This document shows, one piece after another, positions 5,291-8,547 of a DNA stretch of 64,000 nucleotides; the first letter of the stretch is position 1, and every line of letters starts with the position of its first letter. A program made the position numbers and the translations under genes. The notes beneath the pieces are model-generated. The model did not search any database. It had not been told where the DNA came from and was given only the letters and a program-made list of their open reading frames with translations. This stretch comes from Pedobacter schmidteae (GTDB lineage: Bacteria; Bacteroidota; Bacteroidia; Sphingobacteriales; Sphingobacteriaceae). The DNA lies in assembly GCF_900564155.1 (NCBI RefSeq), contig NZ_LS999839.1, positions 4,709,097 to 4,773,096 on the forward strand, in the 5' to 3' direction.

Positions 5291-5314
5291 ATTTGTAAAT
5301 TTTTATCTACAGAA

Positions 5315-5572
5315 CTATTTTCGATTTTGTGAAACTTCAAAAGCCCTTTTTGGCAAAAATTCCTGTGGCGATATACCCCAGTGATCTGCAAGTTTATTAA
5401 TATGATTCAGATTATATTTTGCATTATGCTCAGGGTTCTCAATTTTATTTATAAACGTTCGACTTACCCCCAGTATAAAGCCCAAATCCTCTTGCGTAAG
5501 TTTCTTTTCAATCCTAGTTTTAAATACAAAATCTACGACAAACTGCTCTATATCCGTTAAGGTATTTTCCAT
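5315..5572 (-). CDS. XRE-family helix-turn-helix regulator
   Basis: This 85-residue protein is a single-domain Cro/C1-type repressor. The HTH spans about residues 15-65, with RIEKKLTQEDLGFILGVS as helices 1-2 and RTFINKIENPEH as the recognition helix. It is convergent with the coiled-coil gene (25-bp gap) and divergent from the HEPN-like gene. The 407-bp intergenic region it shares with the latter contains several interleaved inverted repeats. It could repress its own promoter and that of the HEPN-like gene, or the transfer genes; the target is not shown by the sequence. Confidence 0.8.
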   Translation of the reverse strand: MENTLTDIEQFVVDFVFKTRIEKKLTQEDLGFILGVSRTFINKIENPEHNAKYNLNHINKLADHWGISPQEFLPKRAFEVSQNRK

Positions 5573-5755
5573 TGTCCTAACAACAGAAAAAAAAGTAAAT
5601 AAAAAGTAACATATATGTCTCTTTTTTACTTATATTTGATTTGAGCTTATCTAATAACTGGTTGAAGTTTTACCTAGCCAATTATTTATTGTTGCTCACG
5701 GTATTTAAATAAAATTGATTTATGAATTAATATTTTTTTGAGAATTTATTTTTAA

Positions 5756-5949
5756 GAGTCTTGCGGCGATTATCTGAGGCCGTATCGCAGGACAGCAGAA
5801 TATCCCTTAATCTATGCTTAGATATGTTATCTTTGCATATCAGGATAGATTTGGGGTCTGCTGTAATCCCGTGTTACGTAAGGCCTCAGAAACTTTAAGT
5901 CGCCACGGTTGGCAGATCCCAAATTTATCTATCCAACTCTCCAAGACTC
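5756..5949 (+). ncRNA. Structured leader / candidate regulatory RNA with interleaved inverted repeats
   Basis: Several complementary segments are directly visible. GAGTCTTG (5756-5763) pairs with CAAGACTC (5942-5949). GGCGA (5765-5769) pairs with TCGCC (5900-5904), and TGAGGCC (5775-5781) with GGCCTCA (5882-5888). GGATAGATTTGGG (5843-5855) pairs with CCCAA..ATCTATCC (5918-5934), and TCTGC (5857-5861) with GCAGA (5912-5916). The second and third sets interleave, which in RNA would be a pseudoknot. A competing pair, ACAGCAG (5792-5798) with CTGCTGT (5858-5864), would make part of the structure switchable. The block ends 30 bp before the HEPN-like gene. RNA or DNA-level function is inferred. Confidence 0.45.
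5828..5835 (+). promoter_or_regulatory. Putative -7 promoter box (TAnnTTTG) for the HEPN-like gene
   Basis: TATCTTTG matches the Bacteroidota -7 consensus TAnnTTTG exactly. Transcription would start near 5842, right where the large hairpin 5843-5934 begins, so the 5' end of the mRNA would be base-paired. I see no good TTTG -33 box at the usual spacing, so the call is tentative. Confidence 0.4.
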
Positions 5950-5979
5950 ATTTAAGTAGCAAACTAATTAAATGAGAAT

Positions 5980-6870
5980 ATGGAAATGCAACCTTTGTCA
6001 ATCGCCAGTGAACACTCAAAGTCCTTTAAAAAACTAATCAGATTATTAATCTGGAAATTCAAACCGCAGCAACTTTTCTGCTTTGCTCAAATTGCTGCGT
6101 TTAAAGAAAGTTGTGGCATTTTTACGAGCACAAAGGCCAGTAGTCAATTTCATTATTGCCTGCTAATGGTTACTGAATCTCATCAACCTACTGAATATCA
6201 AGTGCAGAAATTTATCAATTCACGCTTTAAAACGGGTGAAATTACGGTCTTATGCTACCCTAAAAAAGAGGTTTCAGATGCTTTAACCGCCAACAGCAGG
6301 TTTTTCAAAGCTATTTACAGCAATTCAATTCTACTTTACAGTTACAATAATCTAGTACAATCGGATTATCATAGCAATCCAAGTCCTTCAAATGTATTAA
6401 GAAAGGTCGAAAAGAAATACCTGTATTATATCCCGTTAATAGATGGTTTTCTTACTGGCGCTACTCATTTCATCAAAAACCAGGAGTTTTCCATATGCAC
6501 AATGATGTTGTATCATGCCGTTCAGCAATGTACTGAACTACTAATCAGTGTACATCTTTCCTGTCCAATTAAAATACGGAGTTTATATACCCTTATTAAC
6601 CTGTGCCGTAGTTTTTCAGATGAACCATATCGGATTTGGTTGGCAATAGAACAAGATAAAAGGCTGTTTGACCTCTTGATAAAAACCTATTCAGAGGCTG
6701 GATTTGGGATTACTTATCCGGTTTCAGAAGACAACCTTACCAGTTTGTTTGTAAAAGCAACCACTTTCGTACACCTGACCAAACAGATGTGTAGAAACAA
6801 AATTGAGCTGTTGCATGAGGAAATTCTACATCTAACATCGAATCAACAATCAAGTTTTAATACAGTATAA
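5980..6870 (+). CDS. Nucleotidyltransferase-like / HEPN domain protein
   Basis: This 296-residue protein resembles the Bacteroidota family in which a minimal-nucleotidyltransferase-like N-terminal half is fused to a HEPN domain. Residues about 30-125 follow the MNT-like layout, ending in NSRFFKAIYSNSILLYSYNN, but the GS(x)nDxD catalytic signature is missing. Residues about 150-270 form a HEPN-like helical bundle with MMLYHAVQQCTELLISVHL and IRSLYTLINLCRSF. The R-x4-6-H ribonuclease motif is not evident. HEPN/MNT pairs are toxin-antitoxin modules; here both parts look degenerate, so a binding or decoy role is possible. It follows the structured leader and is 17 bp upstream of a small gene. Confidence 0.6.
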   Translation: MEMQPLSIASEHSKSFKKLIRLLIWKFKPQQLFCFAQIAAFKESCGIFTSTKASSQFHYCLLMVTESHQPTEYQVQKFINSRFKTGEITVLCYPKKEVSDALTANSRFFKAIYSNSILLYSYNNLVQSDYHSNPSPSNVLRKVEKKYLYYIPLIDGFLTGATHFIKNQEFSICTMMLYHAVQQCTELLISVHLSCPIKIRSLYTLINLCRSFSDEPYRIWLAIEQDKRLFDLLIKTYSEAGFGITYPVSEDNLTSLFVKATTFVHLTKQMCRNKIELLHEEILHLTSNQQSSFNTV

Positions 6871-6887
6871 ACCTAAATCTAATTATT

Positions 6888-7163
6888 ATGGAAGATTTAA
6901 TGAAACGGCTGGACTACCAGCCATCCAGTTTAACAAGCCATGAACTGGAAAACCCCTTAGAAGTGATAACAGATTTCTTTGATAATCATGCCTTGCATGA
7001 GGTAAGAAATTCAGTTTGGGAACTCTATAAGGGATGGGTAAACTATTCCTGTGATTTTCTAGAGGCTAAGGAAACTACTGATATGCTGTTTTTCTATTCA
7101 CAGCTAATTAATTTTGTAAACGCCAGTTATCTATATGCCGAGAGGAAAAAAGCAGAAGTCTAA
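6888..7163 (+). CDS. Small hypothetical protein, partner of the HEPN-like gene
   Basis: This acidic 91-residue protein begins 17 bp after the HEPN-like gene on the same strand, so it is probably co-transcribed. It has no signal peptide or clear membrane segment. The composition suggests an all-helical fold with aromatic residues (SVWELYKGWVNYSCDFLEA, FFYSQLINFVNASYLYA). I do not recognise a family. Its size and position are consistent with a small partner protein, for instance an antitoxin-like factor, but nothing in the sequence proves that. A strong terminator follows at 7209-7240. Confidence 0.55.
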   Translation: MEDLMKRLDYQPSSLTSHELENPLEVITDFFDNHALHEVRNSVWELYKGWVNYSCDFLEAKETTDMLFFYSQLINFVNASYLYAERKKAEV

Positions 7164-7381: not shown

Positions 7382-8086
7382 TTAACGGCTCATCCCTCGG
7401 CCACGGTCTTTACCAAGATCGTTTTTTGTTTCCTGCAATTTCCGGTATAATTCCCGGCTCTCTTGCAAGCTGGTGTATTCCTGAACAGCTTTTGAAATGC
7501 TCAATCTCACGTCCTGCCATTTCAACTTACCGTCCATCAGCAACACAGGGACATTAAAATCAATATCTTTTTGGTACAGCAATGATGATTTCGCAATATT
7601 AGGGTCAACATTTGGATATTTGCTGCAATAGTAGTGCATGATCATGTCTAATGACATTTCTTTTAGCAGGTAATGTATATCTATAAAATCTTTAATTCTT
7701 TGTCCGCTGTTGACAATCGCATTTATTTTCATAGCAGAAATATCCGCATTGGACATGATCCTGATCCCCTCAATAGTTTCAATTGGCTTTATAGACGGAT
7801 ACCTGTGTGAAATAAAATCAAAATCTACCTCACCGATACTACCGCTTACATAATTGCTTTTATGGCGTTTTACATTGGCATCATAAGTCTGCTGAAGGTG
7901 CAGGGCTAGTTTGTCCCCGTCAAAGTCCGAGGAATTGAACAGATCGATATCTATGGATTGCCTGTGGCCGATCCTTAAAGACAATGCGGTGCCACCTACG
8001 AGGTAAAATGAATTAAGATGCTGATCCTGCATCAGCTTTTGGATTAAATCCAGTGTCCCTGGTTTAACTGTTTCTTTGTATAACAT
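7382..8086 (-). CDS. abiEii: Nucleotidyltransferase toxin, AbiEii/AbiGii family
   Basis: This 234-residue protein is the toxin of an AbiE-type system. The nucleotidyltransferase core is clear at residues about 28-50: LVGGTALSLRIGHRQSIDID, giving the GG(x)T and DID metal-binding signature, with a third acidic site in GEVDFDFIS near residue 90. AbiEii proteins transfer nucleotides to RNA (tRNA in studied relatives) and stop growth, often giving phage resistance or stabilising mobile elements. The start lies inside the upstream gene (43-bp overlap), a strong sign of translational coupling. It is placed between the HEPN-like operon and the integrase in the mobile element. Confidence 0.88.
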   Translation of the reverse strand: MLYKETVKPGTLDLIQKLMQDQHLNSFYLVGGTALSLRIGHRQSIDIDLFNSSDFDGDKLALHLQQTYDANVKRHKSNYVSGSIGEVDFDFISHRYPSIKPIETIEGIRIMSNADISAMKINAIVNSGQRIKDFIDIHYLLKEMSLDMIMHYYCSKYPNVDPNIAKSSLLYQKDIDFNVPVLLMDGKLKWQDVRLSISKAVQEYTSLQESRELYRKLQETKNDLGKDRGRGMSR

Positions 8087-8547
8087 TTGAGCTTTTCTTT
8101 GCTCAACTGGAAATACTTACAAACGGCATCCATAGTCATGTCAGATAGATAGGTGATGTCATTTTTAAGGGCTTCAATTACATTTTCCCTTCCGTAAAAC
8201 CTGATCATTTCTTCCCATTCCGATGGGCTGCCTTTATCAAGAACCCTTTCTATTATAGTCTTATAACTTCTGTTCCAATCCAGTTTATCGTAATCAAAAT
8301 CCCAGAACAATACCTTTGGCAAATCCGGTCTTTTGACCTGATGGATCAGTGGTTGCCGCTCAATTTTGATCTCGTCATTTTCAAACGGGATTTTCTTTTT
8401 AGATAGATAGTTATTTAAAGTATGATAATTATAAACCGGGTAGCTGTCACAAAATCCTTTAAGACTTGAAAAAACATCAATCTCTGTTCCGCCAAATCTT
8501 TTCCAGTGTACTACAACTACCCGTTTATTAATCTCTTTTATCATCAT
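8044..8547 (-). CDS. AbiEii partner / probable antitoxin (DUF6922-like)
   Basis: This 167-residue protein precedes and overlaps the AbiEii gene, the usual position of the antitoxin. The C-terminal half (about residues 75-155) has the pattern LPKVLFWDFDYDKLDWNRSY with SEWEEMIRFYGRENVIEAL, which I recognise as DUF6922, commonly found next to AbiEii in Bacteroidota. The N-terminal half has a winged-helix feel (FSSLKGFCDSYPVYNYHTLN), fitting a DNA-binding autorepressor. It differs from classical AbiEi. A 16-bp perfect palindrome lies 32 bp upstream of its ATG and may be its operator. The antitoxin role is inferred from gene order. Confidence 0.72.
   Translation of the reverse strand: MMIKEINKRVVVVHWKRFGGTEIDVFSSLKGFCDSYPVYNYHTLNNYLSKKKIPFENDEIKIERQPLIHQVKRPDLPKVLFWDFDYDKLDWNRSYKTIIERVLDKGSPSEWEEMIRFYGRENVIEALKNDITYLSDMTMDAVCKYFQLSKEKLKCYTKKQLNQGHWI

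Follow-up and report, generated by a model that had tools for sequence, protein, structure and literature searches.

In translational attenuators, such as the erm leaders and the tetQ leaders of Bacteroides, mutually exclusive hairpins are formed, one of them at the start codon, while the repZ leaders of IncI/IncB plasmids are controlled by a pseudoknot, in which the upper part of a hairpin pairs with a downstream loop near the start codon. In Bacteroidota, which are described as generally being without Shine-Dalgarno sequences, structure near the start is reported to inhibit translation readily in Prevotella bryantii and possibly in other Bacteroidetes (PMC3155529). A structured RNA in front of a HEPN gene is RCd22, which lies in the 5′ untranslated region of abiF in Clostridioides difficile (PMC12373285). 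According to that report, it acts in cis on AbiF expression, in which it can be likened to the leader described here, counteracts AbiF and has a Rho-independent terminator at its end. Pedobacter, one of the genera in which the leader occurs, also has a candidate structured RNA of its own, the Pedo-repair RNA (RF01715; PMC2864571).

The window is the whole stretch of DNA that was analysed, 64,000 nt of Pedobacter schmidteae. Upstream of a HEPN-like gene it holds two crossing inverted repeats, stems A and B, which the original prediction had read as the switch-like leader of that gene, with a promoter inside it, and for which it had offered an RNA antitoxin and a repressor-binding array as alternatives. 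The features of this region are collected in Table 1. The outer stem P0, hairpins D and S, and the upstream box P1 were not part of that prediction.

Table 1. Features of the leader and the neighbouring genes in the window (position 1 is the first nucleotide of the window)
Feature	Position	Strand	Remark
Divergent HTH (Cro/C1-type) gene, 85 aa	5315..5572	-	Pfam HTH_3 E 9.9e-7, HTH_19 E 2.9e-7
Upstream promoter box P1, TATATTTG	5631..5638	+	Putative; Bacteroidota -7 type; corresponds to L083 1375-1382
Outer stem P0, 5′ strand, GAGTCTTG	5756..5763	+	Helix with 5942-5949
Hairpin A (match to models R1/R2)	5757..5908	+	Nested helices, including stem A and 5792-5799/5857-5864
TAnnTTTG box TATCTTTG in the apical loop of hairpin A	5828..5835	+	Candidate for an RNA loop motif or for an inner promoter (P2)
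Stem B, 5′ strand	5843..5863	+	Also serves as the 3′ side of upper hairpin A
Hairpin D	5908..5937	+	5908-5912 with 5933-5937, from the sequence
Stem B, 3′ strand	5910..5934	+	Within the hairpin D loop
Outer stem P0, 3′ strand, CAAGACTC	5942..5949	+	CTC common to P0 and hairpin S
Hairpin S	5947..5976	+	5947-5955 with 5968-5976; directly before the start codon
Cargo gene, HEPN-like, 296 aa	5980..6870	+	N-terminal half of nucleotidyltransferase-like appearance
Second cargo gene, 91 aa	6888..7163	+	No family

Both stems and the TAnnTTTG box were found in the sequence where they had been predicted. Stem A is made up of the pairings 5765–5771/5898–5904 and 5773–5781/5882–5890, and stem B of 5843–5863/5910–5930, with 5843–5850/5927–5934 as an alternative; 20 pairs join the two strands of stem B in the window copy. 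RNA folding gave −86.2 kcal/mol for 5742–5985 (z −7.4) and −51.5 for 5842–5985 (z −6.3), and in neither case was any of the 200 shuffles as good. The upper part of hairpin A and stem B use common bases and are therefore mutually exclusive; judging from the topology, the lower part of hairpin A and stem B could coexist as a pseudoknot. A third pairing, which had been proposed as a competitor of stem B, is real and does compete with it, because its 3′ strand and the inner end of stem B have bases in common; yet it is no separate element, but helix 4 of the long hairpin A, paired in 99.7% of the cells of the family alignment. With the translational attenuators the leader shares mutually exclusive hairpins, one of them at the start codon, and with the repZ leaders a long-range pairing between a hairpin and a downstream loop near the start codon; unlike in repZ, stem B has ∼18 pairs and replaces part of the hairpin, and we noticed neither a replication gene nor an antisense RNA.

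Homologues were searched for with covariance models R1, built from the window leader and seven others upstream of HEPN genes, and R2, of which the window copy is itself a member (149.8 bits, E 4.1e-37). R1 matched hairpin A in 126 of the 399 genomes sampled from the family to which the window belongs, in 9 of 25 genera. R2 matched in 100 of 250 genomes of an order-wide sample and in 4 of 296 genomes of a phylum-wide sample, all four of them in the window's own family; weak matches were lost in the large searches, which ran with stricter filters. A conserved part of the leader was present in four named records (two Pedobacter, two Sphingobacterium); the taxonomy of two of the species places them in Sphingobacteriaceae, and we take this to be the family in question. 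The plasmid and phage collections gave no match. Elsewhere in its own genome the window leader has a paralogue at 85% identity, in which one stem A pair is changed on both sides, from G-C to C-G. The paralogous cassette L002 (2183673–2186926 of the same genome) has a HEPN frame without its middle part, seen as a gap in the blast alignment. A third, diverged leader copy (L164, 3023137–3023285; 34 bits, E 4.5e-5) had no HTH-like ORF that we noticed beside it, and its cargo resembles the window ORF 6888–7163 by eye.

For the comparative analysis we used 90 elements, namely 30 loci returned by the search, L002 and 59 of 60 further places taken in order of E-value (L103 was dropped as a duplicate of L002, and only a few of the weaker R1 matches were fetched); with seven duplicate rows counted once, they comprise 83 distinct sequences. 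Pairing was kept in 94.2% of the cells of hairpin A, and 34 of its 51 pairs had changes on both sides. The double-change cells numbered 435, compared with 117.3 (sd 11.4) in shuffles and 39–80 in slid controls; these counts lean towards the model, to which the alignment was fitted, but an unfitted alignment of eight leaders agrees with them, 13 of 52 pairs being compensated. Stem B, which is not part of the covariance model, had a mean energy of −29.4 kcal/mol with its own partner strand, −22.1 with foreign partners and −13.1 with shuffled ones. The cognate partner beat the median foreign partner in all 83 sequences, and in 21 of them it beat all 25 foreign partners. As both crossing stems covary, the reading as a switch-like leader is supported. 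Among the mismatch cells of the 45 pairs with a Watson-Crick commonest type, 243 were G-U, 72 A-C and 66 other; this excess of G-U over A-C argues for a plus-strand RNA and not for a DNA palindrome.

The remaining parts of the element were compared in the same sequences. P0 was mostly invariant; where the 83 sequences depart from it, 44 cells are G-U, 5 are A-C, 4 are double changes and 48 are mismatches of other kinds, in a count that favours pairing since the 3′ strand was located by a list of allowed motifs. Hairpin D, at −8.8 kcal/mol with its cognate strand versus −6.6 with foreign ones and better than the median in 61 of 83, is moderately supported by this comparison. In 86 of the 90 loci, hairpin S surpassed the mean of its shuffled versions, and an ATG follows it within 8 nt in 69 of 90, across unrelated cargos; in the window, three bases separate the end of S from the ATG of the cargo gene (5980). 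A compensated and conserved RNA structure thus lies upstream of a coding start, as in a cis-regulatory mRNA leader. At the level of sequence comparison, these results demonstrate a conserved RNA with two mutually exclusive folds and a fixed relation to the start codon.

That the start codon after hairpin S is translated is supported by a mini-ORF of 14–21 codons, which is the first ORF in 31 of 90 loci and mostly ends in APE or PPD. The single-base codon differences in it numbered 989 at position 3 versus 136 and 40 at the other two, and this third-position excess argues for translation; overall, 892 codon differences were synonymous and 1197 were not (28 distinct strings compared pairwise, so that the pairs are not independent). 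We also observed that this conserved mini-ORF, such as MNKKQRSKNIITAPE, stands directly after the leader, for example in L144, L145 and L138, that its stop codon lies inside a CCGAG-TAG-CTCGG hairpin in several copies, and that it is often found upstream of an ORF with a thioredoxin-like motif. In the position of the mini-ORF the leader differs from the attenuators, and it differs from them also in that hairpin A has no start codon common to all loci. A leader peptide inside hairpin A was rejected on this ground: the commonest start codon there occurs in 57 of 90 loci, opens frames of very different lengths and is absent from the window. Separately, in 28 of 90 loci (e.g. L086, L087 and L092; not in the window) the 5′ strand of stem B holds a five-codon frame, MWxLL plus stop; it would be the first frame of an RNA started at the inner box, and it may be a by-product of pairing.

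We then compared the predicted folds of a long RNA started upstream of the element with those of an RNA started just after the inner box. The long RNA had at least 60% of the hairpin A pairs in 83 of 83 predicted folds and fold B in none, and the inner-start RNA had fold B in all 76 predictions, made for the 76 of 83 sequences that have the inner box. Forcing nested B on the long RNA cost a mean of 13 kcal/mol relative to the best predicted fold; a single RNA could therefore switch only with the help of a pseudoknot, a binder or an inner start. The mean probability of hairpin S was 0.92 in the inner-start RNA (n=61) versus 0.61 in the long RNA (n=66, those with a clear S hairpin and ATG; 61 of these were folded for the inner start). 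On average the start region was slightly more accessible in the long RNA (0.51) than in the inner-start RNA (0.46); of 61 sequences, 36 showed a gain in the long RNA and 9 a loss. For the window copy, S was predicted to be closed in both RNAs (0.97 and 0.98), the probability of P0 was 0.03, and the start region gained no accessibility in the long RNA (0.34, against 0.36 in the inner-start RNA).

With moderate confidence, we propose that the element is the structured 5′ leader of a regulatory cassette, consisting of the HTH gene, P1, the leader and an exchangeable cargo, in which the fold would decide on the translation of the first ORF. The full-length RNA, started at P1 under the control of the HTH protein, would take fold A, and P0 would thereby keep three bases of hairpin S engaged. 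Stem B would form instead through the pseudoknot after a signal, or through a start at the inner box. Once B is formed, P0 or one strand of it would be lost, and S, closing over the start region, would lower the translation of the first ORF. We infer that transcription starts at P1, that the HTH protein exerts control and that translation is controlled at S. The direction, A being on and B off, is a guess, which the folding numbers favour weakly over the family and do not favour for the window copy, and the step from fold to expression is the weak one.

TAnnTTTG is the promoter consensus of Bacteroidota. In the 150 nt ahead of the leader, 59 of 90 loci have a box of this type (16% by mononucleotide shuffles), most often near −30 to −40 and −50 to −62; the reverse strand has such a box in 4 loci of the 90 (10% expected). 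A box TATATTTG like that of the window P1 is also found at −126 in L085 and at −125 in L002. Of the 63 upstream boxes, 36 (35 when counted a little differently) have a TTG starting 17–25 nt above them, versus 14.3 in shuffles; in the window copy of P1, no −33 TTG was seen by eye. Within the element, the first box is TATATTTG in 74 and TATCTTTG in 9 of the 90 loci, and 7 have none; all 83 inner boxes sit 60–89 nt into the element. None of these 83 has a TTG 17–25 nt upstream, where shuffles have 9.0. The box that had been predicted to start transcription at the first base of stem B is therefore conserved, but a start there looks weak when its missing TTG is set against the upstream boxes.

These data bear directly on the main competing explanation, that the apical TATATTTG is a real promoter P2, that A and B belong to the long and the short transcript, respectively, and never compete, and that B is a protective or inhibitory hairpin at the 5′ end of the short mRNA. 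The conservation of the inner box speaks for it, and so do the same two-letter preference as in the P1 boxes (TA 31 and TC 12 of 63 upstream), the uniform fold B of the inner-start RNA and the energy lost by nested B in the long RNA. However, the missing TTG speaks against it, the box is absent from some of the elements, and, sited where hairpin A forms its loop, it could owe its conservation to the RNA. We regard this explanation as doubtful, though not far-fetched. From the letters alone, the inner box is a candidate for either a promoter or an RNA loop motif, and the missing TTG argues against a strong promoter. It is also unlikely, in our estimate, that the apical loop holds a second promoter by which a start chosen by the HTH protein would select the fold and hence the translation of the cargo, in a plug-in cassette for unrelated cargos, defence-like HEPN genes included; this reading is less probable because no inner box has a −33 TTG.

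The cargo genes show how far the leader is tied to HEPN proteins. The HEPN-like protein of the window had no Pfam, NCBIfam or PADLOC match, but Pfam HEPN (PF05168) was found in 5 of 5 tested relatives (E 2.1e-11 to 2.3e-8). Its AlphaFold model, made from three sequences and with a mean pLDDT of 69.6, matches the HEPN structure 4nqf_A (E 2.0e-6, TM by target 0.89) and weakly matches the nucleotidyltransferase-like protein 3c18. The window 91-aa protein is similar by eye to a 195-aa partner encoded downstream of HEPN genes elsewhere. A HEPN cargo is present in ∼22 of 90 loci, 19 found by script and three by inspection (L088 was recognised as HEPN; L080 and L105 are apparently broken). The description as the leader of a HEPN-like gene thus holds for the window and is too narrow for the family. 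The other cargos include six proteins of ∼430 aa, a 200-aa protein in four loci and two ORFs that look like ECF sigma factors by eye. In 58 of 90 loci the script found a short first ORF (two broken HEPN genes included), and in 26 of the 58 the ORF that follows carries the thioredoxin-like motif FWATWC; the labels TlpA, SusC and sigma denote motifs read by eye or script and not the result of a family search. With a riboswitch in mind, the cargo genes were inspected, and no metabolite theme was evident among them.

A leader or antitoxin specific for HEPN was ruled out by the many non-HEPN cargos found in the model search. Improbable, too, is the broader possibility that the leader is processed to a stable partner RNA acting in trans, for example an antitoxin of the AbiF type, on HEPN or on other RNAs. 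In its favour, a compact architecture precedes a HEPN-fold gene, as in AbiF/RCd22 (PMC12373285). Against it, unrelated first ORFs stand behind the same leader, for which reason the suggested RNA antitoxin has gained no support, and in sequence the leader is tied more closely to the HTH gene than to the HEPN gene (see below). Functionally, AbiF with RCd22 comes nearest to the leader. In both systems, as far as the RCd22 report describes them, a structured RNA lies in the 5′ untranslated region of a HEPN-fold gene (Abi_2 in AbiF) on a mobile element; however, the architecture is different, the leader has non-HEPN cargos, and the window protein gave no Abi_2 match. No terminator-like site was detected in 5560–6060 of the window, hence no Rho-independent terminator between the leader and the gene, in contrast to RCd22; two features that define the AbiF system, Abi_2 and the terminator, are thus absent here. 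Attenuation by an intrinsic terminator was likewise rejected, as such a site is absent from this stretch.

The partner that accompanies the leader almost everywhere is a divergent ORF, found at most 260 nt upstream in 88 of 90 loci; 48 of the 88 match Pfam HTH_3 and 42 match HTH_19. Among 18 HEPN loci (those of the 19 found by script that have a divergent ORF), the similarity of the leader was correlated with that of the HTH protein (Mantel r 0.86, and 0.89 with cargo held) and much less with that of the cargo (r 0.23, p 0.01, and 0.45 with HTH held), while HTH and cargo were unrelated (0.005). Over 88 loci, r between leader and HTH was 0.45. As the leader tracks the HTH gene more than the cargo, HTH and leader behave as a cassette relative to the cargo, although mere physical linkage may also account for the tracking. 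The window cassette is near relaxase and NikA/MobC-like genes and a tyrosine recombinase, and it likely sits on a mobilisable element. At 7382–8547 of the window there is an AbiEii-type nucleotidyltransferase gene together with a DUF6922 gene, perhaps a toxin-antitoxin-like pair, likewise on this element.

The element was also considered as an inverton, which was rejected: no inverted copy was found, 88 of 90 loci have the divergent ORF on the side where it is expected, and the ATG follows S in 69 of 90. Very improbable, finally, is a DNA element that would serve the HTH protein or the tyrosine recombinase as operator array or recombination site: the leader variant tracks the HTH variant, P0 is a terminal inverted repeat, and HTH and leader are combined with different cargos, but the G-U preference, the nested structure over 150 nt with bulges and the absence of any sign of inversion all speak against it. 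The suggested repressor-binding array is weakened in the same way, because a DNA palindrome would not show the G-U preference; binding of the HTH protein to part of the element may remain.

In Rfam 15, the window region 5300–6300 gave 7 matches, all far below the gathering threshold, as the original prediction had expected, and 20 loci (18 with the leader, and L004 and L012 with other types) gave none; the Pedo-repair RNA, in particular, had no match at the Rfam threshold in the window stretch or in these loci. No earlier description of the leader was found in the literature that was searched. We regard it as a new family of structured leader, with no Rfam match at threshold.

Leaders of different sequence but, by eye, of similar layout were seen at other loci (type II: L004, L007, L009 and L013; type III: L012, L034 and L035), with a long hairpin, a downstream hairpin with complementary loop and a start-codon hairpin. 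Type II leaders had double changes in 8 of 68 pairs (4 sequences). R2 does not recognise these types (best E at the right place 0.7), and we therefore do not claim their homology. Distant HEPN relatives (all but the window, L001–L003, L006–L009, L012, L013, L015, L019, L022, L034, L035 and L041) had an upstream fold of z > −3, many of them with other short conserved elements. Such elements, GTTAAAAACAAC..TTGTATTTAACAAC..GGTTCGGTACG and GTAAGATACCA..GGTAGGTTACGG, were noted upstream of the HEPN relatives L020–L032, L010–L018 and others, within ∼110 nt of the start codon, in some cases with a hairpin directly before it.

With the leader, Bacteroidota gain a large RNA family that covaries strongly and has no Rfam match. 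As both competing folds are compensated over more than 80 sequences, it offers a good test system for the control of translation by leader structure. The HTH-leader cassette, standing before many different cargos, gives a handle on how mobile elements may restrain defence-like genes.
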